Assembly: GCA_900320595.1 (NCBI GenBank)
Contig: ONSW01000042.1
Span: forward strand, 1 to 44,844
DNA length: 44,844 nucleotides
Direction: 5' to 3'
From: an uncultured Eubacteriales bacterium
GTDB lineage: Bacteria; Bacillota; Clostridia; Oscillospirales; Oscillospiraceae
The number at the start of each line of letters is the position of its first letter. Position 1 is the stretch's first letter. Positions 2,500 to 41,175 of the stretch are shown in pieces. A program made the translations under genes and the position numbers. Under the pieces are notes generated by a model, which saw only the letters and a program-made list of their open reading frames with translations, made no database searches and was not told the DNA's origin.

Positions 2500-6678
<4,179 letters not shown>

Positions 6679-6767
6679 ATCTTTCCCTCCTGTCTGGGAG
6701 ATTGCCGAAGTGGTTCAGATAATTTCATGTTATGAGAAGTTGAGCGGCAAAAGAGAAATGTAGTAAA

Positions 6768-7604
6768 TTACCCTTTCTTGCGAAAAGCCTCATCCAGCGT
6801 TTTTCCGGCTTTCGTCTTCCACTCAGTCCACCCGTTTGTGGAGCCGCCGAGGACGAAATCACTTGCACCGCTCGGCGTATTAAACTCTATCGTAGCATGT
6901 AAAATGTACTTCCCATCAACAACAGAAATGGAACCCTTTTCGAGTAAATCGGCGCGTTGGCGATTGTATCTCTCCAAATTGGTTGGCTTGTCCATGTTGA
7001 TCTGTGAGCCGTCGAGCACTTCAAATTTTTCGCCGTCATAGATTCCGAACGCTCTGATTCCATTCCGCGTTGTATGAAGGATATCTGCGTTGTCCAGATT
7101 TCTTGAGGTATCGTTCATCTTATAGCCTTGTGTGGCCATGATGAATTGAATCTCCTCATAGATTTCTTCAATGATTGGCAAATCATATTCGTCGATTTCA
7201 TATTGAGGCTTCACGCTGTTCTCAACCGAGTAACGCTTGGACTCATGAGCTTTGACAATGGCATATTCTTCGAGACCACTGATGATGTCCAAAGAAAACG
7301 TTTTGCTGTCGGCTAAAAACATGATGGCTTTATTCCAGAAATCTTTCTGCCGATTATGATCATCCAGTCGTGAGATCCCGTTTCTCGTCTGTCCAATATA
7401 GATCTGAGCAATTCGGTTTTCATCATTCTCGTTAATCAGATAATATATACCAGGGCGGTTGATCCCGGATATCTTTTTAGCGTCTGAAAGCAGCGGGCGC
7501 GGAATAACATAGGTCGTCATGGTTGAGAGGTGTCTCCGAATCGATCGGATACCATCGGGCTGCCCATTATAATAAATCATCTCAAGTTTTTTGCTGCTGG
7601 CCAT
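6768..7604 (-). CDS. GIY-YIG nuclease-fold protein with DUF4357 domain
   Basis: A 278-residue protein. A GIY-YIG motif is clear: GIYYL at residues 52-56 and IYIGQT at 69-74, followed by an arginine in ISRLDDH. The last 60 residues (ASDFVLGGSTNGW ... AGKTLDEAFRKKG) match the DUF4357 type of C-terminal domain often found on such proteins. The GIY-YIG fold cuts DNA in many families; the target here is unknown. It sits between the restriction operon and ietAS on the same strand with short gaps, so it is probably part of the defence cargo. It starts after GGAGGTCTCC. Confidence 0.8.
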   Translation of the reverse strand: MASSKKLEMIYYNGQPDGIRSIRRHLSTMTTYVIPRPLLSDAKKISGINRPGIYYLINENDENRIAQIYIGQTRNGISRLDDHNRQKDFWNKAIMFLADSKTFSLDIISGLEEYAIVKAHESKRYSVENSVKPQYEIDEYDLPIIEEIYEEIQFIMATQGYKMNDTSRNLDNADILHTTRNGIRAFGIYDGEKFEVLDGSQINMDKPTNLERYNRQRADLLEKGSISVVDGKYILHATIEFNTPSGASDFVLGGSTNGWTEWKTKAGKTLDEAFRKKG

Positions 7605-7681
7605 GAATGGAGACCTCCTGCCTTAGTTGTCTAAACAAAAAAGCATTGTGTTTATGAATCGAATGCAAGGAAATGGTTTTC

Positions 7682-9931
7682 TTAATCAAATCGAATCTCT
7701 TCTTGACTTACGTTATAAACCTCGATCTGATTTTGGACATTGACTTCATTAACAATCCACCCGCGAAAAGTGCATGCCCTGACAAATTCTTGAATCCTAT
7801 TAATTCCGTTTATTTCTCGTAAGGTAATTACTGCCCCGAAATTAAGCCGTGTGCCAGTCCGTGTGCTAAGGCGTTCTTTCGAAGTAATTGTTATGCCCCA
7901 AGCACGATCATCATAAGATTTGATGGCTCTGTTTTTTCCCAAGAGTTTAGAGATGAATTTGGTGTTTTCCCATTTTCTAAACTCTCGACGAGATTGACGT
8001 TCATCGACATGGGCACCTTCATCATCTTGGACATTGTCGTTGATGTCGTCAATACTACCTTTGGCATTAATTCTGCCGAATTTAAGGGACAACTCACGAT
8101 TGGTATAATCGACCCCTTGGGAGCGCGTACACTCAGGGAAATAGCATAACGACGCTCGTGCAATAAATGGGAACTTACCGTCATCATCCTTGGGAACTGG
8201 AATTGCATAATTAGCAGTGCGATATGATTCTGAAGATCCATAAACAACAAATCTGATCTCATCACTTTCTGTTTGCAGAATGTCAGAAATGCTTATTGGT
8301 ACAATGCCGTATCCCATGATGTCTTTATTTTTGAAATTTGACTGCTTATAATCCCACCCAGCTGCAGAATCGATCAACAATGCCTTTGCAACTTCTCTAG
8401 GAAGCCCAACGATATCAATTAAGTAGCAAAGCTTTCGGCTTATCCATGGTGCCGCAAAAGATGTTCCATAAACAGGTTCTGCTCCTTTGGGCGAATAAGC
8501 AATGATTCGGTCATCATAATCTCCGCCATAGTACGAGATGTCAGGTTTGTTAAAGAATGATAGTACATTTCCTTTACGTGAGTATGACACGGGCCGACCG
8601 TCTCTGCGCACAGAATTTACGACAATAGAGTTTAGAGAATCTGCAGGAGATCCTATTCTAAGTATACCGCTCCTTTCCTCGCGGTCATCATTTGTCCCTG
8701 AAATAACAAATAATATGTTTTTCTTTGCTTGAAGATCATCTAAGACAGCGGCATCATATGAAATGAAGTTTTTTGAAACTTCATCCTCTGTGCCAAGAGA
8801 AATGTTCCAAACGTGAATGTCTGGGTTTCTATCAACTATTTCTCTGATTTTCCGGACTAAACGAGCTGTAGAAATTTTGTCTTCACATACTCCAAAGTGG
8901 CGTACACGGAACCGTCCGCAGCCGTCATCTAACCAGGGGTTCATTCTTGGACCATCTACAAGAATCGATGTTACCTCGGTGCCGTGTTCGCGCTTGGCGT
9001 CTTTATACAATAACTGTTCAAAATCTTCGAGATAATCAATATTTTCTACCCACGAATTGAAATACACCGACTCGTCAAAAAGAGTATCAATAACGCCAAT
9101 TATTGGCTCGTTTTGGGGTTTAGGGATTTCAATTTCTTCTTTTTCTTGCACACCGTCAATTTCATCTAAAGTGACTTTTGAAAAGTCTGATGAAATCATA
9201 GAAATAAGATAAGGGATTTTTTCTTCGAGGATATCCAAAAGGTCTCTTGTCAAGGAAATAGTATCATCGCCATAAAAGGAGTAAAAGAACCTTGCGTCAT
9301 CAACACCTAGTTTTTCGAGTATGTTAGCAAGCTGAAGTTCAGTTTTATAAAATGTCACAAGGAAAGTATCACTTGATGGAATAGACGAAATCTGGGGAAC
9401 AGAAAAAGATTCTATTACTGAACAATCTATAATGATTCCTCTCATTTTCTTTTTCGAGAGACCAAACCCATCATAGACAATCGTTTTATCAGATTCTTTG
9501 AAATTAGTCGCTGTCGCTTTTCCATTTAAACGCTGGACAAGAAATCTTCTAGCACAATCAAGCTCAACTAGTGTTCTTTCGATAGTATCTTGACTAACAT
9601 AATATGTGATAATGTGATTTTCTTCGCCTTCCGGCGCGTTCGAAAATCTGGCACCAACAATACAATCATTTGTGCTCTTTCTAGATGGCTTTAAAACTTC
9701 TTGAATCCTGTTTGACTTTGCAATTATATCGTTATAATGCACATCGACAAGGATATCTTTCAGGATTTTGGGCGTGCTGCGGTAGTAGCGAAGCACCGCA
9801 CGTAAATCTTCACTCAAAGAATCTATCGCTTCAACACTTGTTTCTGCTGCCGAACGCAAATTCCTTCCATTTGGCCGCTGGGTATTGGATTCCTTGGAAA
9901 ACCTTAGTTTTACTTGTAAGAGAGGATTCAT
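7682..9931 (-). CDS. ietS: subtilisin-like serine protease of ietAS defence pair
   Basis: A 749-residue S8 family peptidase without a signal peptide, so cytoplasmic. The catalytic triad can be read: Asp in IIGVIDTLF (about 279), His in REHGTEVTSILVDG (about 315) and Ser in YGTSFAAPW (about 491). The first 270 and last 230 residues are extra domains without a recognised signature. Its ATG overlaps the stop of the AAA ATPase gene (ATGA), a strong sign that the two products act together. AAA ATPase plus S8 protease is the IetA/IetS arrangement, first known from plasmid incompatibility and later shown to protect against phages. The assignment rests on domain pairing and order, not on close sequence comparison. 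Confidence 0.85.
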   Translation of the reverse strand: MNPLLQVKLRFSKESNTQRPNGRNLRSAAETSVEAIDSLSEDLRAVLRYYRSTPKILKDILVDVHYNDIIAKSNRIQEVLKPSRKSTNDCIVGARFSNAPEGEENHIITYYVSQDTIERTLVELDCARRFLVQRLNGKATATNFKESDKTIVYDGFGLSKKKMRGIIIDCSVIESFSVPQISSIPSSDTFLVTFYKTELQLANILEKLGVDDARFFYSFYGDDTISLTRDLLDILEEKIPYLISMISSDFSKVTLDEIDGVQEKEEIEIPKPQNEPIIGVIDTLFDESVYFNSWVENIDYLEDFEQLLYKDAKREHGTEVTSILVDGPRMNPWLDDGCGRFRVRHFGVCEDKISTARLVRKIREIVDRNPDIHVWNISLGTEDEVSKNFISYDAAVLDDLQAKKNILFVISGTNDDREERSGILRIGSPADSLNSIVVNSVRRDGRPVSYSRKGNVLSFFNKPDISYYGGDYDDRIIAYSPKGAEPVYGTSFAAPWISRKLCYLIDIVGLPREVAKALLIDSAAGWDYKQSNFKNKDIMGYGIVPISISDILQTESDEIRFVVYGSSESYRTANYAIPVPKDDDGKFPFIARASLCYFPECTRSQGVDYTNRELSLKFGRINAKGSIDDINDNVQDDEGAHVDERQSRREFRKWENTKFISKLLGKNRAIKSYDDRAWGITITSKERLSTRTGTRLNFGAVITLREINGINRIQEFVRACTFRGWIVNEVNVQNQIEVYNVSQEEIRFD

Positions 9932-10974
9932 TTGTTATCCCTCAGCTTTCTAGAAACACTGCTTTTAGGCATTCTCGTAAGGATTTCAATTTCTCGTGTT
10001 GTAAAGCCTTCCACATTAAGCTTTTGAATATCAATTGCACTAGAATTACCGTTCAGCGCACAATATATCCGTCTTAGATAATCATATTCATTTGACTCAT
10101 CGCTAAAAGCAATAGCTGTCTTTATGATCTGTTTTAGATCTCCTGGATATGGAATTGCAGCAAGGTTGCGTAATATTTTGTTAAAGAGGCGAATATCCTG
10201 TTTAACATTAGTTGCAGATTTTAGATTTGCCGTTAGGATTGAATCCGCAATTTCAACTAAATCAGCGCGGCTATAGCGGTCAAAAGAAATAAGGGCATCA
10301 AATCTTCGGATGATCGCTTTATCAAAACCATCAAACAAGTTAGTTGTTGCTATTATTACGACGTTCTCGTTTATCCTGTCGAGGGCCTTAAGAAAAGTAG
10401 AGGTAACCCTACCCATTTCTCTTAAATCGTTGCGATTAACTCTATCCATTACGAGAGAGTCTATTTCGTCAAATAAAACTATTACACTATTATATGGGAG
10501 ATGATTTATCTCATCGAAAAGAACAGAAACATTTTTTGCGGTTTCACCTAATCTGCTATCAACAAGGTCTTCAAAGTTTACTGAAAGGATATCCCGATTG
10601 AGCATTCTTGCAATTTGATATACCGATTCCGTTTTGCCGGTTCCAGGGGCACCGTAGAAAAGGAATTTCGACAAGCCAGACTTGTTGCTTATAGATTTAG
10701 CTACACCAATTATGTCTTGTTCAATAGCATCAGGCAACAGTAATGGCTTGGTTGAGTATTCGATTTTCCTTAACATATGAAGGTTTTTGTAAATCTTTTG
10801 CGGGACATAATAATTTACGTTTGAAATAAGTTCCATTAAATATTGTGCGACAGAGGTATCTCCCGCTGCATCAAATTCTTTAGCAATCCCAGCGACCTCG
10901 GTCGAGAAAGCCTCATCATTTTTTTCAACATGATATCTAACCAGGTTGATAATACTTTGCTTTTTCACGGACAT
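9928..10974 (-). CDS. ietA: AAA+ ATPase of ietAS defence pair
   Basis: A 348-residue AAA+ ATPase. Walker A is GAPGTGKT (about residue 110), Walker B is VIVLFDEIDS (about 170), and the arginine region is IIRRFDALISFDRYSR. The last 30 residues (FTTREIEILTRMPKSSVSRKL) look like a small helix-turn-helix. I place the start at 10974 (MSVKKQSIINL) because AGGGGTG lies directly before it and a near-consensus promoter ends just upstream; the longer frame from 11010 would begin inside the promoter. It forms an operon with the overlapping S8 protease and presumably unfolds or presents substrates to it or gates its activity, which is inference. Confidence 0.87.
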   Translation of the reverse strand: MSVKKQSIINLVRYHVEKNDEAFSTEVAGIAKEFDAAGDTSVAQYLMELISNVNYYVPQKIYKNLHMLRKIEYSTKPLLLPDAIEQDIIGVAKSISNKSGLSKFLFYGAPGTGKTESVYQIARMLNRDILSVNFEDLVDSRLGETAKNVSVLFDEINHLPYNSVIVLFDEIDSLVMDRVNRNDLREMGRVTSTFLKALDRINENVVIIATTNLFDGFDKAIIRRFDALISFDRYSRADLVEIADSILTANLKSATNVKQDIRLFNKILRNLAAIPYPGDLKQIIKTAIAFSDESNEYDYLRRIYCALNGNSSAIDIQKLNVEGFTTREIEILTRMPKSSVSRKLRDNK

Positions 10975-10988
10975 CACCCCTATAAAAA

Positions 10989-13158: not shown

Positions 13159-13256
13159 AAGTAGCACCCTCTTATCATAGTTCTGGATGCTGCCATTATC
13201 TCACATAAGGTGTCCCAAAAAACGGACTTTGAACTGTGCCGCCCCCTGTCAAGCGG

Positions 13257-13286
13257 AAAAAGCGCCTGGCCGAAACCAGACGCTTT
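13257..13286 (-). terminator. terminator of the large tRNA array
   Basis: On the minus strand AAAGCGTCTGG and CCAGGCGCTTTTT form a stem with one mismatch around TTTCGG, with a T-run. It lies 15 bases past the last tRNA (Tyr) and before the XRE gene, so it ends the array transcript. Confidence 0.85.
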
Positions 13287-13301: not shown

Positions 13302-13390
13302 TGGTGGGAGAAGTTGGATTTGAACCAACGTAGGCCGAAGCCAACGGATTTACAGTCCGCCCCTTTTGACCAGACTCAGGCATTCTCCCA
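13302..13390 (-). tRNA. tRNA-Tyr(GTA)
   Basis: Last tRNA of array 1. Anticodon loop CTGTAAA, long variable arm, T-arm GGTTCAAATCC and encoded CCA. Its acceptor arms TGGGAGA and TCTCCCA pair perfectly. Confidence 0.95.
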
Positions 13391-13392
13391 TA

Positions 13393-13468
13393 TGGTGGGC
13401 TCTCCAGGAATCGAACCTGGGACGCGCAGATCTTCAGTCTGCCGCTCTACCAACTGAGCTAAGAACCC
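13393..13468 (-). tRNA. tRNA-Phe(GAA)
   Basis: 76 bases including encoded CCA. Anticodon stem-loop GCAGA-CTGAAGA-TCTGC and T-loop GGTTCGATTCC. Confidence 0.95.
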
Positions 13469-13469
13469 G

Positions 13470-13546
13470 TGGGGTGCGTGGCCGGTCTCGAACCGGCGAC
13501 CTCCAGGGCCACAACCTGGCGCTCTAACCTTCTGAGCTACACGCAA
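13470..13546 (-). tRNA. tRNA-His(GTG)
   Basis: Anticodon stem-loop CCAGG-TTGTGGC-CCTGG and T-arm GCCGGTTCGAGACCGGC, with encoded CCA. Only one or two bases separate it from the Phe gene. Confidence 0.93.
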
Positions 13547-13552
13547 CATAAA

Positions 13553-13627
13553 TGGTTGCAGGGGCGGGAGTTGAACCCGCATTGGGCAGCTTATGAAGCT
13601 GTTGCATTGCCGGTCTGCCACCCTGCA
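13553..13627 (-). tRNA. tRNA-Met(CAT)
   Basis: 75 bases; acceptor TGCAGGG pairs with CCCTGCA. Anticodon loop TTCATAA. It lacks the three G-C pairs of initiator tRNA below the loop, so it is an elongator type. A CAT anticodon modified for Ile (lysidine) cannot be excluded. Confidence 0.9.
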
Positions 13628-13699
13628 TCGGTACGCCCCGCTGCGTTGCAAGCCGCCCTCCTTTTTGAGGAGACACAAAGACCATTGTGATACGGGGCA
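13628..13699 (-). other. tRNA-like element, degenerate
   Basis: Between Met and Leu lies a tRNA-sized segment that folds into parts of a cloverleaf. The acceptor-like arms are TGCCCCG and CGGGGCG followed by TACC, a D-arm is CACA-ATGGTCTT-TGTG, and an anticodon-like arm is TCTCC-TCAAAAA-GGAGG. It lacks the TTCRA T-loop, and the base before the would-be anticodon is C, not T. It may be a decayed tRNA or a tRNA mimic; function is unknown. Confidence 0.4.
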
Positions 13700-13787
13700 T
13701 GGTGCACGAAGTGAGACTCGAACTCACAAGCCCATGACGGGCACCAGATCCTTAGTCTGGCGCGTATTCCAATTCCGCCATTCGTGC
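13700..13787 (-). tRNA. tRNA-Leu(AAG)
   Basis: Acceptor GCACGAA pairs with TTCGTGC. Anticodon stem-loop CCAGA-CTAAGGA-TCTGG gives AAG, reading CTT/CTC. Long variable arm and encoded CCA. Confidence 0.92.
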
Positions 13788-13791
13788 ATAT

Positions 13792-13867
13792 TGGTGCGCC
13801 TTGAGGGGATCGAACCCACGACCTTCGGATTAAGAGTCCGCTGCTCTACCAGCTGAGCTAAAAGCGC
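13792..13867 (-). tRNA. tRNA-Lys(CTT)
   Basis: 76 bases with encoded CCA; anticodon loop CTCTTAA; acceptor GCGCTTT. Confidence 0.95.
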
Positions 13868-13870
13868 ATA

Positions 13871-13946
13871 TGGCGCGTCCTGCAGGACTTGAACCTGCGA
13901 CCTTCGGATTAACAGTCCGTCGCTCTACCGACTGAGCTAAGAACGC
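13871..13946 (-). tRNA. tRNA-Asn(GTT)
   Basis: 76 bases with encoded CCA; anticodon loop CTGTTAA; T-arm GCAGGTTCAAGTCCTGC. Confidence 0.95.
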
Positions 13947-13949
13947 ATA

Positions 13950-14025
13950 TGGTACGCCCTGCGGGGCTCGAACCCGCGACCTGCGGTTTAAAAGACCGCT
14001 GCTCTACCAACTGAGCTAAGAACGT
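13950..14025 (-). tRNA. tRNA-Lys(TTT)
   Basis: 76 bases with encoded CCA; anticodon stem-loop GCGGT-CTTTTAA-ACCGC; T-arm GCGGGTTCGAGCCCCGC. Confidence 0.95.
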
Positions 14026-14028
14026 ATA

Positions 14029-14113
14029 TGGTGCACAGGGCGGGACTCGAACCCGCATGCCGTTTGGGCACCAGTTCCTGAAACTGGCTTGTCTACCATT
14101 CCAACACCTGTGC
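14029..14113 (-). tRNA. tRNA-Leu(CAG)
   Basis: 85 bases with a long variable arm and encoded CCA; anticodon stem-loop CCAGT-TTCAGGA-ACTGG; acceptor GCACAGG. Confidence 0.94.
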
Positions 14114-14116
14114 ATA

Positions 14117-14205
14117 TGGCGGAGTGAGAGCGGCTCGAACGCTCAAGCGCATTGCTGCGTCGCCTCCTTAGCGGGGAGGTCCCTTACCTGTTAGGGTATC
14201 ACTCC
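14117..14205 (-). tRNA. tRNA-Ser(GCT), with C33
   Basis: 89 bases with a long variable arm; acceptor GGAGTGA pairs with TCACTCC; G73 and CCA. Anticodon stem-loop CCTCC-CCGCTAA-GGAGG. Position 33 is C where nearly all tRNAs have T. Confidence 0.92.
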
Positions 14206-14208
14206 ATA

Positions 14209-14297
14209 TGGCGCAGGACGGAGGTGTCGATCCCCACAACATCTCTGTTGCCCTCGGTTTTCTAGACCGGTGTCAGCGCCGGCTGACATCATCCTGC
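14209..14297 (-). tRNA. serine-type tRNA with 8+4 acceptor branch (allo-tRNA-like), anticodon AGA
   Basis: 89 bases that do not fit the usual 7+5 fold. The acceptor pairs over 8 bp (GCAGGATG with CGTCCTGC). The T-stem has 4 bp (GGGG with CCTC) around ATCGACA. The D-arm is an unusually long hairpin, TGTCAGC-CGGC-GCTGACA. The anticodon arm is CGGT-CTAGAAA-ACCG, giving AGA, and a long variable arm CAACA-GAGA-TGTTG follows. G73 and the variable arm point to serine. The 8+4 branch is the hallmark of published allo-tRNAs. Confidence 0.75.
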
Positions 14298-14307
14298 ATA
14301 TCTGTTT

Positions 14308-14381
14308 TGGCACCGCACCGAGGTTTCGATCCTCGTCCTCCTGGGTCAAAGCCAGGTGTGCTCCCATTACACCAGTCCGGT
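14308..14381 (-). tRNA. tRNA-Gln(TTG)
   Basis: 74 bases with encoded CCA; anticodon stem-loop CCTGG-CTTTGAC-CCAGG; D-arm TGGTGTAATGG typical of Gln. The acceptor has one mismatch (ACCGGAC against GTGCGGT). Confidence 0.9.
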
Positions 14382-14384
14382 ATT

Positions 14385-14422
14385 TGGTGCGCGAGGTGAG
14401 ATTTGAACTCACAAGCCCAGCA
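14385..14422 (-). pseudogene. 3' fragment of a tRNA-Leu
   Basis: Only the T-arm and acceptor 3' strand with CCA remain (GTGAGTTCAAATCTCAC then CTCGCGCACCA). It closely resembles the 3' end of the Leu(AAG) gene at 13700 (shared GGGCTTGTGAGTTC). The 5' half is missing, so it cannot make a tRNA. It is a relic of recombination within the array. Confidence 0.75.
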
Positions 14423-14424
14423 TG

Positions 14425-14509
14425 TGGTGCCTGCCGAGGGACTCGAACCCCCAATCCTAACGGCGCCCGATCTTAAGCCGGACGTGTATACCAATTCCAC
14501 CAGACAGGC
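14425..14509 (-). tRNA. tRNA-Leu(TAA)
   Basis: 85 bases; acceptor GCCTGTC; anticodon stem-loop TCCGG-CTTAAGA-TCGGG; long variable arm; T-arm GGGGGTTCGAGTCCCTC; encoded CCA. Confidence 0.92.
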
Positions 14510-14513
14510 AAAT

Positions 14514-14590
14514 TGGTGACCCCTGCGGGATTTGAACCCGGCATTTCCGGCTTGAGAGGCCGGCGTCCTAACCGGTTAGACTAAGGGGCC
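14514..14590 (-). tRNA. tRNA-Glu(CTC)
   Basis: 77 bases with encoded CCA; acceptor GGCCCCT; anticodon stem-loop CCGGC-CTCTCAA-GCCGG. Confidence 0.94.
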
Positions 14591-14593
14591 GTA

Positions 14594-14670
14594 TGGCAAC
14601 CCCGACGGGGCTCGAACCCGCGATCTCCTGATAGACAGTCAGGCGTGTTAGCCATCTGCACTACGGGGCT
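14594..14670 (-). tRNA. tRNA-Asp(GTC)
   Basis: 77 bases; anticodon stem-loop CCTGA-CTGTCTA-TCAGG; T-arm GCGGGTTCGAGCCCCGT; encoded CCA. Confidence 0.94.
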
Positions 14671-14676
14671 GTATCA

Positions 14677-14750
14677 TGGCACCGGATCATGGATTTGAAC
14701 CACGACTTCCTGAGTCAGAGTCAGGCGTGCTGCCGTTACACCAATCCGGT
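14677..14750 (-). tRNA. tRNA-Gln(CTG)
   Basis: 74 bases; anticodon stem-loop CCTGA-CTCTGAC-TCAGG; acceptor ACCGGAT with ATCCGGT; encoded CCA. Confidence 0.94.
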
Positions 14751-14753
14751 ATA

Positions 14754-14829
14754 TGGTGATCCCTGCCGGATTTGAACCGAGCATTACCGCCTTGAAAGGG
14801 CGGCGACCTACCTGTTAGTCGAAGGGACC
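14754..14829 (-). tRNA. tRNA-Glu(TTC)
   Basis: First tRNA of array 1. Anticodon stem-loop CCGCC-CTTTCAA-GGCGG; acceptor GGTCCCT; encoded CCA. A hairpin ends three bases before its 5' end. Confidence 0.94.
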
Positions 14830-14832
14830 ACG

Positions 14833-14854
14833 CCAGCCCGATCATTTGGGCTGG
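14833..14854. other. hairpin between regulator and first tRNA
   Basis: CCAGCCC pairs with GGGCTGG around an 8-base loop. On the plus strand a T-run follows, so it can terminate plus-strand transcription. On the minus strand, the direction of the array, there is no T-run, so there it more likely protects or processes the transcript between regulator and tRNA. Confidence 0.6.
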
Positions 14855-14861
14855 TTTTTAT

Positions 14862-15116
14862 TTATGCTGAGATTCGGATCGTTCCGTCGTCTTGAAATAT
14901 CAAGATATCCTCGATCCTCACCCCGAACACGGCTGCGAGAACGACGAGATTGTCAACCGTCGGCAAAGCCGTTCCACGCTGCCACTTGTAAATTGCCTGC
15001 GGGGTGCTGAAGCCGAAGATGTCCTGGAGATCCTTCACAGTCAAACCTGCGTTGACTCGCAAGCGTGCGATGTTGATTCCTGTTGCGGTCAAGTCAATGA
15101 CCGGTATTCGATTCAT
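14862..15116 (-). CDS. 84-aa XRE-type regulator 1 of tRNA module
   Basis: A small helix-turn-helix protein; residues about 16-75 (INIARLRVNAGLTVKDLQDI, then STPQAIYKWQRG and LPTVDNLVVLAAVFGV) match the Cro/C1 fold. It is a close paralogue (roughly 75% identical by eye) of the protein at 17014-17268. It lies between rtcB and array 1, on the same strand, 45 bases after rtcB. The equivalent gene in module 2 stands at the same place before its tRNA array. It probably represses the module promoter at the TATACC/GGTATA palindrome; that is inference. Confidence 0.85.
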   Translation of the reverse strand: MNRIPVIDLTATGINIARLRVNAGLTVKDLQDIFGFSTPQAIYKWQRGTALPTVDNLVVLAAVFGVRIEDILIFQDDGTIRISA

Positions 15117-15161
15117 TTCATTTACGCTCCTATTCCGGCGCAGAGCCGGAAAGGAACCGGC

Positions 15162-16361
15162 TCAGTTGGCCTTAAAGTTGTAGATAGGTTTTAATACTTC
15201 AATAATGTCTACGCTTTCACCGATCACGTCGATGATGTCCGCGAGGGATTTGTACGCCATAGGCGCTTCATCCAGCGTGGCTTCATTAACCGAGGTCGTG
15301 TAGATGCCCTCCATCTCGCGGCGGTATTCGTCCAGATCGAGACGCTCTTTTGCAGCGGTACGCGACATGATACGGCCGGCACCGTGAGGCGCGGAGAAGT
15401 TCCAGTCGGGGTTGCCCTTGCCGATGGCCAGCACACTGCCGTCACGCATGTTGATCGGGATCAGCACCTTCTCGCCCTTGTGCGCGGCGATGGCGCCCTT
15501 GCGGAGGATCATTTCCTCGGTGTCGATGTAGTTATGGATCGTGTGAAAGGCGTCAACCTCTTCGATGCCAAGTTGCTGCAAGATGATTTCGGCCATGAGC
15601 TCCCGGCTCCGGCGGGCGAAGCGCTGGCAGATCTCCACATCGTGGATGTAGTCCTCCAGATACGGACCGTATACGAAGCAGAGGTCCTCCGGGATCGTTG
15701 CCTCGCGCGATTCCCACTTAAGCGCTTTCAATGCGTCCTGTATTTCATTCCGGCGGCCGGCGGCTTTGTACTCTGCAATCAGCGCATCTCGCCTGGCAAA
15801 GTACTCCTCCTTGCCCTTGTTCAGATCGATGGCAAGGCGCTGGTAGAACTCGGCCACCTGTTTGCCCAGATTTCGAGAACCCGAGTGGATAACCAAATAC
15901 TTTGTGCCATCAGCCGCCTGGTCGATCTCGATGAAGTGGTTGCCGCCGCCGAGGGTGCCAAGGCTGCGCTCGAGACGCTTGGCGTCCTTCAGCCCGCGGT
16001 AGCAGCGCAGGGCAAGCAGGTCGAAGTGTTCTTTCCGGCCTTCCCAGACGTTCAGCCCGGAGGGGATGAAGTGCGCGGCGGCATCCATCTGTTCCATGTC
16101 GATTTCAACCTGGCCAAGATTCACGGTGTACATGCCGCAGCCGATATCCACACCGACGATGTTGGGCACAGCCTTGTCCTTCACGGTCATGGTCGTTCCG
16201 ATCGTGCAGCCCTTGCCTGCATGGACGTCGGGCATGATGCGGATCTGGCTGCCCGCGGTAAACTCGTAATCACACATCCGGCGGATCTGCTCGACGGCCT
16301 CGTCCTCGATGACCTTGGCAAAGCAAATCGCGGTATTTACTTGTCCCTTAATTTCCATCAT
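15162..16361 (-). CDS. rtcB: RtcB-family RNA ligase (tRNA repair)
   Basis: A 399-residue GTP- and Mn-dependent ligase that joins 3'-phosphate or 2',3'-cyclic phosphate ends to 5'-OH ends, the ends left by most anticodon nucleases. Signature blocks are present in order: DVHAGKGCTIG (about 45), GVDIGCGM (about 70), LGGGNHFIE (about 140), HSGSRNLG (about 160) and SAPHGAGRIMSR (about 325), whose His accepts GMP. ATG follows AGGAG at 8 bases. It is the first gene after the leader ORF and terminator and is followed by the XRE gene and 17 tRNAs on the same strand. That context points to repair of cut tRNA rather than general RNA processing. No archease partner is visible. Confidence 0.93.
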   Translation of the reverse strand: MMEIKGQVNTAICFAKVIEDEAVEQIRRMCDYEFTAGSQIRIMPDVHAGKGCTIGTTMTVKDKAVPNIVGVDIGCGMYTVNLGQVEIDMEQMDAAAHFIPSGLNVWEGRKEHFDLLALRCYRGLKDAKRLERSLGTLGGGNHFIEIDQAADGTKYLVIHSGSRNLGKQVAEFYQRLAIDLNKGKEEYFARRDALIAEYKAAGRRNEIQDALKALKWESREATIPEDLCFVYGPYLEDYIHDVEICQRFARRSRELMAEIILQQLGIEEVDAFHTIHNYIDTEEMILRKGAIAAHKGEKVLIPINMRDGSVLAIGKGNPDWNFSAPHGAGRIMSRTAAKERLDLDEYRREMEGIYTTSVNEATLDEAPMAYKSLADIIDVIGESVDIIEVLKPIYNFKAN

Positions 16362-16386
16362 GCTGTTTTCTCCTGTAAATAGACGT

Positions 16387-16421
16387 GAAAAAGCCGCTCA
16401 CCTCATACAAGGCAAGCGGCT
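16387..16421 (-). terminator. attenuator-like terminator 1 (leader to rtcB)
   Basis: On the minus strand AGCCGCTTGCC pairs with GGTGAGCGGCT (11 bp with two G-T pairs) around TTGTATGA, then TTTTTC. It lies 28 bases after the stop of the small ORF and 26 bases before the rtcB start, within one transcription unit. Its 5' arm and the TTGTATG part of the loop are identical to terminator 2. Confidence 0.88.
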
Positions 16422-16449
16422 GAAATCTATCTGATAGTCCCCGGGCGGG

Positions 16450-16578
16450 TTATACAATCACATTTCGATTCTTCTTTGCCTTATATGAGCGCGTGAAATG
16501 ACGGTCCAGATAATTAAAGCTGGACTGGAGCTGTTCCATGTGCTTTTTCCCTGACAAAGAGAAACGAACTGCAATCAT
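16450..16578 (-). CDS. leader peptide 1 (42 aa) whose codons match array 1
   Basis: A 42-codon ORF preceded by GGAAAGGAAAAAG, too short for usual gene finding. Residues 11-25 are KKHMEQLQSSFNYLD. These fifteen residues use exactly the eleven amino acids carried by array 1 and none of the nine that are absent from it. Codon choice follows the anticodons: Lys AAA and AAG for TTT and CTT, Leu CTC and CTG for AAG and CAG, Ser TCC and AGC for AGA and GCT, and two Gln CAG codons for two Gln tRNAs. Start, VRF-L and HF--SY--K residues are shared with leader 2. A terminator follows. I infer a ribosome-stalling sensor, not a functional protein. Confidence 0.8.
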   Translation of the reverse strand: MIAVRFSLSGKKHMEQLQSSFNYLDRHFTRSYKAKKNRNVIV

Positions 16579-16619
16579 GTCTTTTTCCTTTCCGGGCCTT
16601 GCCCTGATTTTCTGACGTC

Positions 16620-16663
16620 ACTATAGCACGTTGTGTTCCCGTTGTAAAGAAACCTGTGGTATA
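16620..16663 (-). promoter_or_regulatory. promoter and operator of tRNA module 1
   Basis: TTTACA (16643-16648) and TATAGT (16620-16625) are separated by exactly 17 bases on the minus strand. Upstream of the -35 lies TATACCACAGGTTTC (16649-16663), whose left half and spacing match the perfect palindrome of module 2. Both promoters share TTTACAAC and the spacing. Confidence 0.8.
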
Positions 16664-16681: not shown

Positions 16682-16757
16682 TGGTGCGCTCTACAGGATT
16701 CGAACCTGTGATCTTCGGATTATCGATCCGCTGCTCTACCAACTGAGCTAAGAGCGC
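16682..16757 (-). tRNA. tRNA-Ile(GAT), with C33
   Basis: Last gene of array 2. 76 bases with CCA; acceptor GCGCTCT pairs with AGAGCGC. The anticodon loop is TCGATAA, so position 33 is C rather than T. Confidence 0.92.
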
Positions 16758-16760
16758 ATA

Positions 16761-16836
16761 TGGTACGCCCTCGGAGATTCGAACTCCGCACTTCCGAATT
16801 ATAAGTTCGGCGTTCTGCCAACTGAACTAAAGGCGT
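16761..16836 (-). tRNA. tRNA-Ile(TAT)
   Basis: 76 bases; anticodon stem-loop CCGAA-CTTATAA-TTCGG; this is the rarer Ile tRNA that reads ATA without lysidine. T-arm GCGGAGTTCGAATCTCCG; encoded CCA. Confidence 0.92.
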
Positions 16837-16839
16837 ATG

Positions 16840-16914
16840 TGGAGCGCCTTCGGAGATTCGAACTCCAGATTTTCGCATTACGAGAGCGATGTTCTGCCGT
16901 TGAACTAAAGGCGC
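16840..16914 (-). tRNA. tRNA-Thr(CGT)
   Basis: 75 bases; anticodon loop CTCGTAA, with a T-T mismatch closing the anticodon stem; acceptor GCGCCTT; encoded CCA. Confidence 0.9.
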
Positions 16915-16917
16915 ATG

Positions 16918-16991
16918 TGGAGCGCCCCCGGAGATTCGAACTCCGGTCCCCGCGTTACAAATGCGGTGTTCTTCCGCTGAACTAAAGGCGC
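16918..16991 (-). tRNA. tRNA-Thr(TGT)
   Basis: First gene of array 2, 74 bases. Anticodon loop TTTGTAA with an A-C mismatch closing the stem; T-arm CCGGAGTTCGAATCTCCGG; encoded CCA. Confidence 0.9.
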
Positions 16992-16998
16992 ATTTCCT

Positions 16999-17033
16999 GA
17001 GCCGCCGCATCTACTATGCGGATACGGCGGCTC
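16999..17033. other. hairpin at end of regulator 2
   Basis: GAGCCGCC pairs with GGCGGCTC, with an inner GCAT/ATGC stem. It overlaps the last codons and stop of the regulator gene and ends 8 bases before the first tRNA. It takes the same place as the hairpin at 14833-14854 in module 1. Confidence 0.6.
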
Positions 17034-17268
17034 CTCCGTCTTCCTGAAATACTAAGATGTCATCGATTTTTACTCCGAAGAGAGCAGCAAGTACTGCGAG
17101 GTTGTCTACCGTCGGCAGGGTATCACCGCGTTGCCATTTATAGATGGCTTGTGGAGTACAAAAGCCGAAGACATCCTGCAAATCTCTCACCGTCAGTCCT
17201 GCATGAACTCGAAGTCGAACGATGTTGAGCCCGGTTGCGGGGAGGTTGATAACCGGCATGCGATTCAT
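17014..17268 (-). CDS. 84-aa XRE-type regulator 2 of tRNA module
   Basis: Paralogue of the protein at 14862-15116, same length, colinear throughout (MNR-PVI-L-ATG-NI-RLRV-AGLTV-DLQD-FGF-TPQAIYKWQRG). It is the only protein gene between terminator 2 and array 2. It starts 19 bases after the outer stem of the terminator, with AAGGGGTG upstream. It probably controls the module promoter, perhaps also that of module 1, given the shared operator half. Confidence 0.85.
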   Translation of the reverse strand: MNRMPVINLPATGLNIVRLRVHAGLTVRDLQDVFGFCTPQAIYKWQRGDTLPTVDNLAVLAALFGVKIDDILVFQEDGGAAVSA

Positions 17269-17286
17269 GATAAATACACCCCTTAA

Positions 17287-17334
17287 TGAATACTAAAAGC
17301 CGCCTGCCCCATACAAGGCAAGCGGCTGTATTCA
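17287..17334 (-). terminator. attenuator-like terminator 2 (leader to regulator 2)
   Basis: On the minus strand AGCCGCTTGCC pairs with GGCAGGCGGCT (11 bp, one G-T pair) around TTGTATGG, followed by TTTTAGT. An outer stem GTATTCA/TGAATAC lengthens it. It lies 18 bases after the small ORF stop. The T-run is weaker than in terminator 1. Confidence 0.82.
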
Positions 17335-17351: not shown

Positions 17352-17483
17352 TTAGGCCAATGAGTGCGTACAGTCGTGGTTCTTTACCCCATATGAGCAT
17401 GCGAAATGAGAGCCCGAAATAGTAATCTCGGACGTCGTTGTAATCTGCTCATTGGGTATCAAGAGGAACCGAACGAAACTCAT
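17352..17483 (-). CDS. leader peptide 2 (43 aa) rich in Ile and Thr codons
   Basis: A 43-codon ORF preceded by GGAAAGGAAAA. Residues 14-22 are ITTTSEITI, with a further Ile at 9. The array downstream holds only Ile and Thr tRNAs, and each has a codon here: ATA at residue 9 for Ile(TAT), ATT at 14, 20 and 22 for Ile(GAT), ACA at 15 for Thr(TGT), ACG at 16 and 17 for Thr(CGT). The two leader peptides are related at their ends (VRF-L and HF--SY--K) but differ in the middle, the part that matches the respective array. I infer a ribosome-stalling sensor. Confidence 0.78.
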   Translation of the reverse strand: MSFVRFLLIPNEQITTTSEITISGSHFACSYGVKNHDCTHSLA

Positions 17484-17525: not shown

Positions 17526-17569
17526 ACTGTATCACGATCAGGCTTAGTTGTAAATATACCTGCGGTATA
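17526..17569 (-). promoter_or_regulatory. promoter and palindromic operator of tRNA module 2
   Basis: TTTACA (17549-17554) and TACAGT (17526-17531) are 17 bases apart on the minus strand. Directly upstream of the -35 is the perfect palindrome TATACCGCAGGTATA (17555-17569), a likely site for the XRE regulator. Confidence 0.8.
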
Positions 17570-40521: not shown

Positions 40522-40757
40522 AAAAAGAATGTCATGAACAGAGCAGATACTGTTCATGACAGGAGACCTCAAAAAGAGGACGAATGTCTGACAGCTCTCC
40601 GCTTTTTTGCAAAAGCGACAGTCCGGCGGATGTTCTCGCGCCGGCCCAGGCATATCCGTCCGGGAATACGGATACCCTTCGGCGGAAAGCCCTTTCGCCC
40701 CCTGCGGTCCCCGCCGCGTTAAAAAAGGGAGCTACTGATGATTTCCGCGCCTCTATC
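40522..40757 (-). promoter_or_regulatory. lysine riboswitch (L box) with terminator
   Basis: Read on the minus strand, the aptamer starts GATAGAGGCGCGG at 40757 and has ATCAGTAG, then CCGCCGAAGGGTATCCG, CCTGGGCCGGC and GCCGGACTGTCGC, in the order and spacing of the lysine aptamer; P1 closes with AG-CTGTC near 40590. The expression platform ends in TGTCATGAACAG / CTGTTCATGACA (40530-40561) followed by a long T-run at 40522-40528. Lysine binding should stop transcription before the transporter gene. Confidence 0.9.
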
Positions 40758-41175
40758 ATACTTTGTTCAGTTGCATTCATTATAATCCACATTTTTTATC
40801 TGTCAACAGACAGTGTGAAAATGACGCAAATTTTGGCGAATTTGTGACTTTTTCGATCGGCTTGGGCGGGTATGCTGTACATCCTGCCAAAGAAAAAACG
40901 AATAAAAGTGAAAGCTCATCGCATGAATATACACAAATTGACAAAAAAAGAGGCGGATCGGAAAACCGATCCGCCAAGACAGGGTTGTGGGATAAAGATA
41001 TGAGCCGGTCCTTTTTGAAAAAGGACACTTGGATAAGCTGTGCCTATACGATAGCGCGGCGGCGCGGTTTTGTAAAGAGCGAACGGACACTAGTTTTGTC
41101 GAACGCGAAAAAAGTATATTTCCCCGCGCACGCGGGCATAATGAGAGGGAATCCACATCGAGAGGAGATCTTGTT
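40758..41175. other. gap with an orphan terminator
   Basis: No protein gene is supported. It contains the minus-strand terminator at 40943-40975 and the leader of the DUF378 gene. The riboswitch promoter must lie at its left end. Confidence 0.6.
40943..40975 (-). terminator. minus-strand terminator without an obvious gene
   Basis: GGCGGATCGG-TTTT-CCGATCCGCC followed by TCTTTTTTT on the minus strand. Upstream on that strand, up to 41175, there is no protein gene, so it may end a small RNA. Confidence 0.8.

Follow-up and report, generated by a model that had tools for sequence, protein, structure and literature searches.

Leader peptides matched to downstream tRNA arrays in Clostridia, and a predicted attenuator that responds to shortage of several tRNAs

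Attenuators of amino-acid operons (trp, his, leu, thr, ilvGMEDA) combine a short translated leader containing codons for the limiting substrate with mutually exclusive antiterminator and intrinsic terminator structures ahead of the first gene, and leaders that index two or three amino acids are known from ilvGMEDA and thrABC. Transcription attenuation at the level of tRNA is also common in Bacillota in the form of T-box riboswitches, each of which binds one uncharged tRNA directly. The subject of this analysis is a pair of leader-array units on contig ONSW01000042.1 (assembly GCA_900320595.1) of an uncultured Eubacteriales bacterium of the family Oscillospiraceae; the whole stretch of 44,844 nucleotides is referred to as the window. 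Compared with the attenuators of amino-acid operons, the predicted output of these units and their homologues is the tRNA genes themselves, often together with the RNA ligase RtcB; an index can comprise as many as 14 amino acids, most of them represented by one or two codons, in place of runs of one to three; and the codons follow the isoacceptors, with leader and array co-evolving on mobile elements. A T-box riboswitch was considered and rejected, as Rfam at gathering scores matched only a lysine riboswitch and tRNAs in the window.

The closest described system found is the trn operon of Anabaena PCC 7120, an array of 26 tRNAs that is normally silent and is upregulated under translational stress, with rtcB under the same regulator TrcR, a ribbon-helix-helix repressor that binds at or near the -10 element (PMC10272220). 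In that system rtcB is on the chromosome and the array on a megaplasmid, and the words "leader" and "attenuation" are absent from the text of the article (PMC10272220). The RtcR-controlled rtcBA operon is an RtcB operon regulated by damaged tRNAs, through a transcriptional activator with a divergent CARF domain (PMC7790460), whereas rtcB of the window adjoins the gene of an 84-aa HTH_3 protein and sensing would proceed through translation. Neither a CARF-domain activator nor RtcA was found among the rtcB neighbors in the window, which was the extent of the search and where those neighbors are the leader unit and the 84-aa HTH_3 protein. Phage tRNAs evade tRNA-targeting defenses and share with the present arrays the altered anticodon loops of tRNAs carried by mobile elements, but the part of that article covered does not mention a leader sensor, and expression here appears to be conditional (PMC10264068). 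In one open-access library, with papers judged by title and start of abstract and subscription papers mostly outside its range, no earlier description of a leader peptide controlling tRNA arrays was found.

Each unit is very probably a ribosome-mediated transcription attenuator with a leader peptide that indexes the downstream tRNAs, as judged from comparison of homologous sequences. The order of elements in a unit is a promoter with a palindromic operator-like element, a ribosome site, an open reading frame (ORF) of about 45 codons that includes an antiterminator segment starting near codon 30, a terminator, rtcB and/or a gene for a small XRE-type regulator, and the tRNA array. Two consecutive units are found on the minus strand of the window, an upstream unit (17569-16682) and the focal unit (16663-13302), with the following features.

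16643..16663, minus strand: operator-like element and -35 of the focal unit, TATACCACAGGTTTCTTTACA (hexamers TTTACA-17-TATAGT; 15-nt core matches; column counts in 105 units that were themselves found with this element as one criterion)
16625-16620, minus strand: -10 of the focal unit, TATAGT (promoter scan)
16587..16593, minus strand: Shine-Dalgarno run GGAAAGG of the focal leader (sequence reading and leader finder)
16450..16578, minus strand: focal leader ORF of 42 codons, MIAVRFSLSGKKHMEQLQSSFNYLDRHFTRSYKAKKNRNVIV (ORF list)
16501..16551, minus strand: focal sensor segment, codons 10-26, where array match is above chance in the family (position profile)
16476..16489, minus strand: predicted focal antiterminator segment CTCATATAAGGCAA, within the ORF and complementary to the left arm and loop of the terminator (pairing tests)
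16392..16421, minus strand: focal intrinsic terminator hairpin AGCCGCTTGCCTTGTATGAGGTGAGCGGCT with T run (-21.1 kcal/mol), recovered by the purpose-written leader finder and not present in the mechanical terminator scan
15162..16361, minus strand: rtcB, RNA ligase of 399 aa (PF01139, 4.2e-56)
14862..15116, minus strand: small XRE/HTH_3 regulator of 84 aa, focal unit (domain search)
13302..14829, minus strand: focal tRNA array, Glu(ttc) Gln(ctg) Asp Glu(ctc) Leu(taa) Gln(ttg) Ser(aga) Ser(gct) Leu(cag) Lys(ttt) Asn Lys(ctt) Leu(aag) Met His Phe Tyr (ARAGORN, Rfam)
13256..13286, minus strand: terminator-like hairpin 3' of the last focal tRNA, AAAGCGTCTGGTTTCGGCCAGGCGCTTTTT, seen by eye and absent from the mechanical scan list
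17549..17569, minus strand: operator/-35 of the upstream unit, with core TATACCGCAGGTATA, a six-base inverted repeat (finder and pattern scan)
17352..17483, minus strand: upstream-unit leader ORF of 43 codons, MSFVRFLLIPNEQITTTSEITISGSHFACSYGVKNHDCTHSLA (ORF list and finder)
17384..17397, minus strand: predicted upstream-unit antiterminator segment CTCATATGGGGTAA (pairing tests)
17298..17327, minus strand: upstream-unit intrinsic terminator (terminator scan and finder)
17014..17268, minus strand: second XRE/HTH_3 gene, in the upstream unit (protein 75% identical to the focal XRE)
16682..16991, minus strand: upstream-unit tRNA array, Thr(tgt) Thr(cgt) Ile(tat) Ile(gat) (ARAGORN, Rfam)

An earlier note on this DNA had described the focal unit, and the upstream unit is absent from it. 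The anatomy that it gave is correct: a 42-codon ORF with its own promoter and ribosome site, followed on one strand by a terminator, rtcB, an XRE gene and tRNAs. Its count of 17 tRNAs agrees with relaxed ARAGORN (17 plus one unassigned), the method that alone detects Ser(aga); default ARAGORN gives 16, and Rfam gathering scores give 15, without Ser(gct). The amino acids of the array are exactly D, E, F, H, K, L, M, N, Q, S and Y, and residues 11-25 of the leader, KKHMEQLQSSFNYLD, use those eleven amino acids, with codons as claimed (AAA and AAG for Lys, TCC and AGC for Ser, CTC and CTG for Leu, only GAA for Glu and only CAG for Gln). The coincidence on which the note relied is real, but alone it is only weakly informative, as nearly every leader finds matches among 17 tRNAs: strictly cognate codons are present for 14 of the 17 array tRNAs, whereas the same array set against 34 other leaders gives 11.0 strict matches on average and at most 15, and the focal array serves a fraction of 0.72 of the sensor residues in the focal leader compared to a mean of 0.67 and a maximum of 0.79 for the others. 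The coincidence is largely expected from any array of 17 tRNAs and by itself is weakly beyond chance; the focal leader was rejected as sufficient evidence taken alone, and therefore the claim was tested on homologues. The leader of the upstream unit contains ATA, ATT, ACA and ACG codons, a separate class corresponding to each tRNA of its array of four, and scores four of four strict matches, compared to a mean of 1.5 and a maximum of 4 for 33 other leaders.

A scan of 84,980 species genomes with an alignment of the XRE protein confirmed at least 578 relatives, and the best 80 of 578 loci were used. By genome, the protein was found in 37 of 300 from the family of the window (whole-genome search, E 1e-20), 7 of 394 drawn from its order and 5 of 391 from its class (E 1e-33), and 42 of 397 of another family (E 1e-36), counts for which the thresholds differ and the samples overlap. 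Sixty genomic stretches plus phage and plasmid stretches were collected for the leader search, in which the finder required a promoter element (Hamming scan), a ribosome site, an ORF 20-75 codons long and a hairpin followed by a T run, which in the units stands between the leader and the first gene. These features and much of the palindrome, being criteria of the finder, carry no independent weight as evidence; it made no use of the codon match, the position profile, the pairing of native versus swapped segments or the identity of the downstream gene. The finder located 122 leader units with rtcB or XRE behind them in 148 sequences (105 units after merging identical leader DNA) and no unit in 29 of those sequences. 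The finder proved specific, as an rtcB or XRE gene was present within 1.2 kb behind 123 of 125 leaders scoring at least 26 (3.16 Mb, both strands summed). In the loci first analyzed, a leader precedes 124 of the 149 XRE genes that have at least 450 nt of upstream sequence, which bears out the conservation of the ORF, and six more genes lie too close to the end of a contig. Two sets of short loci (L088-L121 and L142-L170) had been omitted as duplicates of the collected stretches; 19 of them, for which no such stretch had been collected, were run later and gave no leader. Fifteen of the 19 are the weaker XRE relatives L102-L116 considered below, and in the other four (L144, L153, L161 and L167) the sequence ends at or near the expected place of a leader. 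Ten further XRE matches (eight and two, from two genome searches) are outside all counts. Behind the 105 units there are at least two tRNAs in 55 units, one in 12 and none in 38, and rtcB is present in 57.

The match test was applied to the 55 units with at least two tRNAs, thereby excluding 50 of the 105, and these were reduced to 35 clusters (leaders less than 60% alike) with one representative each. Arrays were called by relaxed ARAGORN (-ps85), which makes some calls doubtful; a single tRNA separated by more than 250 nt from the element before it was dropped, and later ones of the same chain were kept. Among the 35 representatives, the fraction of array amino acids present in the unit's own leader upstream of the antiterminator is 0.985, compared to 0.847 ± 0.024 for permuted arrays, and the fraction of sensor residues served by the unit's own array is 0.404, compared to 0.303 ± 0.012, both with p at the floor of 20,000 permutations (5e-5). 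Coverage in all 55 units is 0.963 versus 0.861 ± 0.018, and permutation within terminator type or among arrays of similar size (0.881 ± 0.023 coverage) returns the same verdict at the floor of 5,000. Trp is present in all four leaders with tRNA-Trp in the array and in 4 of 31 others; the corresponding counts are 7/7 and 15/28 for Cys, 8/9 and 10/26 for His, and 6/6 and 14/29 for Met. Individually, F, G, L, N, S, T and Y show no significant association in these representatives because they occur in most leaders or in few arrays, and Arg shows none (3/4 with the tRNA and 28/31 others). The commonest tRNAs of the representative arrays are Glu(ttc) in 26, Tyr in 22, Lys(ttt) in 15 and Glu(ctc) in 15; Ala, Val and Pro tRNAs occur in none of the 35, and the largest index comprises 14 amino acids (L009).

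The match extends to isoacceptors. Among array tRNAs for amino acids that have two or more codon classes, 128 of 139 find a strictly cognate codon in the leader of their unit, compared to 102.1 ± 3.9 when synonymous codons are shuffled among leaders and 93.0 ± 4.3 (maximum 107 in 3,000 draws) when codons are drawn from the usage of the unit's own rtcB and XRE genes. The codon ATA is found in four of five leaders with tRNA-Ile(TAT) and in none of three with only the other Ile isoacceptor. By position, the excess of match over that with other arrays is -0.05 at codons 2-5 and +0.05 at codons 6-9, rises to +0.13, +0.23, +0.18 and +0.14 in four successive bins over codons 10-25 with its peak at codons 14-21, and falls to +0.06 at codons 26-29, +0.01 at codons 30-33 and +0.03 to +0.06 further on. 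Codon-to-array matching is real, and it appears to be maintained by selection.

Close relatives illustrate how leader codons follow changes of the array. The window, L008 and L013 have one common leader backbone, in which L008 (tRNA-Trp present) has SWKKHMEQLQSSFNYLD where the window (no tRNA-Trp) has SGKKHMEQLQSSFNYLD and L013 (tRNA-Cys present, no Met or Asn) has SCKEHKELQSSFDYLD. L134 and L136 also have a common backbone, with Cys in both leader and array of the former and in neither of the latter. Two divergent units of L051 have different sets, one with HKHLEFLLCSFKQEL for {C,E,F,H,K,L,Q,S} and the other with Ile, Thr, Met and Ser in the leader for Thr, Thr, Met, Ile and Ser tRNAs. Between the tRNA genes of the window there are a 3' tRNA half (14420-14385), at the place where L008 has Leu(caa), and a degraded tRNA-like stretch (13699-13628); such remnants are signs of array turnover.

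In a cultured organism, Ruminococcus albus 7, plasmid pRUMAL01 carries three units in tandem (L215, NC_014824.1 95173-105397, at 4528-7907), a stretch in which Rfam detects tRNAs only and for which the gene table, with RNA genes omitted, shows only protein genes. Leader 1, SYLYSESLLSLVLESEE, is followed by Leu tRNAs, an XRE gene and Glu. Leader 2, RSYDDYQCFFSFSFDWQDEG (YDDYQCFFSFSFDWQDEG), is followed by an XRE gene and Asp Gln(ctg) Cys Phe Gln(ttg) Trp; it was found by eye, with promoter-like hexamers and a hairpin, having been missed by the finder, and its six strictly cognate codons of six are equaled by none of 35 other leaders. Leader 3, FSYSYSYSS, was found by the finder with no rtcB or XRE gene behind it and is followed by Tyr and four Ser tRNAs; it is not extreme among the 35 other leaders, 33 of which also contain S and Y and four of which reach its fraction served. 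Leaders 2 and 3 are outside the match test set.

The folding check proposed in the earlier note, for a terminator/antiterminator pair, reveals a covarying pair. A segment of the ORF, which begins at codon 30-31 in both window leaders, forms a strong contiguous helix (score at least 20) with the left arm and loop of the terminator in 52 of 105 units, for example CATATGAGAC/GTCTCATATG in L047 and ATTTCAAGATAAGC/GCTTGTCTTGAAGT in L136, and the helix is present in the minimum-energy fold of a transcript ending in the terminator loop in 51 of those 52. The mean score for pairing of a leader with its own terminator is 21.2, compared to 17.4 ± 0.36 when terminators are swapped (n = 104, floor of 20,000), while the native terminator is the best or tied best for only 12 of 104 leaders, with 10.6% of foreign terminators pairing better for the median leader. 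Relative to the reading frame of the ORF, the start of the helix falls in phase 0 in 25 units, in phase 1 in 17 and in phase 2 in 10; the helix is therefore conserved as RNA and not as peptide.

With all indexed tRNAs charged and intact, the ribosome would pass over the antiterminator segment, the terminator would form, and the tRNAs would stay off. Cutting or scarcity of any one indexed tRNA would stall the ribosome within codons 10-26, leaving the segment free to form the antiterminator and allowing RNA polymerase to read through; given the footprint of a ribosome, an A site before approximately codon 26 should leave the segment uncovered. Readthrough, which is predicted to rise upon stalling at indexed codons, would supply tRNAs to replace those lost and, for the roughly one half of units that carry rtcB, also the ligase that reseals cut tRNAs. 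The homologues back the central proposal of the earlier note, a leader that senses tRNAs, with stall-dependent readthrough and a cleavage trigger as its predicted parts. The arrays are sets of spare tRNA genes on mobile elements of Clostridia from gut and rumen, and they are probably switched on by a shortage of the corresponding tRNAs in the cell. The likeliest natural trigger, and the least certain step, may be cleavage of tRNAs by anticodon nucleases of defense systems or toxins. It is somewhat more likely than not that the units act as a general multi-tRNA damage sensor. The mRNA would then be a checklist of the spare tRNAs that devotes a codon or two to each isoacceptor and is revised codon by codon when the cargo is exchanged; cleavage of any listed host tRNA by an anticodon nuclease would release nuclease-resistant replacements and RtcB.

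Amino-acid starvation would likewise trip the switch, and a broad starvation attenuator, triggered by uncharged tRNA and producing tRNAs that serve recovery or the codon demand of the element, is rather unlikely but is the strongest competitor: anatomy cannot separate cut from uncharged tRNA, known peptide attenuators respond to charging, and RtcB, named as an output in the earlier note and present in more than half of the units, is optional, as 48 of 105 have no rtcB. Starvation does not readily account for the controlled genes, which are those of tRNAs and an RNA ligase and not of biosynthesis, with rtcB in 57 units, or for a match that reaches isoacceptors of one amino acid, which starvation can separate only poorly. 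In addition, the array tRNAs differ from chromosomal genes for the same isoacceptor outside the window (22 loci) in the anticodon arm in all seven comparable cases, a comparison limited to seven isoacceptors with 20 of 50 tRNA matches giving no locus, and in four of the seven (Asp, His, Phe and Thr(cgt)) the anticodon loop itself differs. Outside leader units, rtcB is found behind another gene in L009 (5879-7400), L010 (5550-6743) and L020 (6266-7650), followed in L009 and L020 by separate Arg/Ile tRNAs; the protein encoded upstream resembles an RNA-binding protein of the TROVE/vWA type.

Several observations weigh against a ribosome-mediated attenuator that indexes its array. The expectation that leader composition always matches the array holds overall, far above permuted arrays, but seven of the 55 units miss an array amino acid: the leader of L010 (identical in L011) is without the Trp and Thr of its array, that of L186 is without His, Arg (L046, L071) and Pro (L001) are unmatched but belong to doubtful tRNA calls, and the Lys of L042 and L048 falls just past the counted segment. 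Within the cluster of L009, L010, L012 and L014, backbones are much alike and arrays widely different, L010 being the one that ignores its Trp and Thr. A strong contiguous antiterminator helix is missing from 53 of 105 units, four of which have no helix of at least six pairs. A protector (1:2) helix like that of trp is tentative and has weak support, with a mean z of 0.67 ± 0.20 over 52 units, and the focal stop codon is approximately 23 nt downstream of the antiterminator segment, so that a ribosome waiting there probably would not cover the segment; shut-off in the focal unit would then rest on timing or on a protector, and the least clear part of the mechanism is what keeps the switch off when the cell is not under stress. 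No leader was found at 25 of the 149 XRE genes with at least 450 nt upstream, nor, in about 1.5 kb of upstream sequence, at any of 15 weaker XRE relatives (L102-L116; E 4e-34 to 4e-31, 55-67% identical, same family of genomes), which have no clear array and at most two relaxed tRNA calls each. This more distant branch is outside the leader-array system, and it does not shift the odds because its loci lack tRNA arrays too. Finally, in 30 of 105 units there is rtcB but no tRNA nearby, which places their leader-array match beyond the test. Such rtcB-XRE units with a leader and no tRNA gene behind include L015, L019, L021 and L028, and their leaders may point to the host tRNAs that are under threat.

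Over its first 15 nt, with best form TATACCnnnGGTATA, the promoter element is palindromic and overlaps the -35, which suggests a second layer of control. The 84-aa XRE protein is the probable ligand of this palindrome, and binding there would probably repress or tune initiation. That XRE alone regulates the units, the leader being a relic, is nevertheless quite improbable: the palindrome has at least five of six pairs in 67 of 105 units, a figure that the finder consensus favors, and exact matches to the 15-nt pattern occur in the genome at the two leader promoters only (one-mismatch sites elsewhere number three, compared to two for a reversed control pattern), but leader matching looks maintained by selection and the third R. 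albus unit has a leader with no XRE gene before its tRNAs. It is more improbable still that the ORF encodes a functional small peptide, such as a toxin neutralizer, ahead of a hairpin that serves simply as a terminator or for processing; within leader subfamilies, both the N-terminal residues and the C-terminal part look conserved by eye, but the middle of the leader turns over with the array, and the conserved 3' segment is read in three frames, keeping its pairing with the terminator and not its peptide. An indirect match, with leader and array both tracking the codon or amino-acid bias of the element and nothing being sensed, is scarcely credible, for although the focal leader alone is barely above other leaders, the controls for synonymous shuffling and own-operon codon usage are exceeded, the excess is concentrated in codons 10-25 (0.01-0.06 from codon 30 on), and relatives gain and lose single codons.

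If the attenuator is real, it would show how bacteria and mobile elements sense the loss of particular tRNAs generally and not singly, and it would explain the conditions of expression of mobile tRNA arrays. With the protected tRNAs indexed by their codons, the leaders would become a readout of the tRNAs attacked in nature, a map of tRNA-targeting warfare in the gut and rumen, and if the units are multi-tRNA damage sensors they would constitute an adaptable counter-defense. The leader is short and modular and is suited to reporter tests in a laboratory host.

The surroundings of both window units look like a mobile element, with genes for a Mob_Pre relaxase, a large serine recombinase, a CHC2 zinc-finger protein, a tyrosine integrase, a type I restriction system, and IetAS- and PDC-S14-like proteins. 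At 6768-10980, an IetA/IetS-like ATPase-subtilase pair and a PDC-S14-like GIY-YIG/DUF4357 protein adjoin the type I restriction system, forming a defense island beside the tRNA units. On a plasmid of Ligilactobacillus salivarius (L216, NZ_CP117984.1), a Cys-rich leader-like ORF (MSKFINTQCCCLVTCCPVG...) at 4493-4603, behind a distant XRE relative, has a promoter-like element and a hairpin and precedes a peptide ABC transporter gene; it is perhaps an ordinary Cys attenuator. The lysine riboswitch of the window (RF00168) is at 40584-40763 on the minus strand, ahead of a transporter-like ORF.

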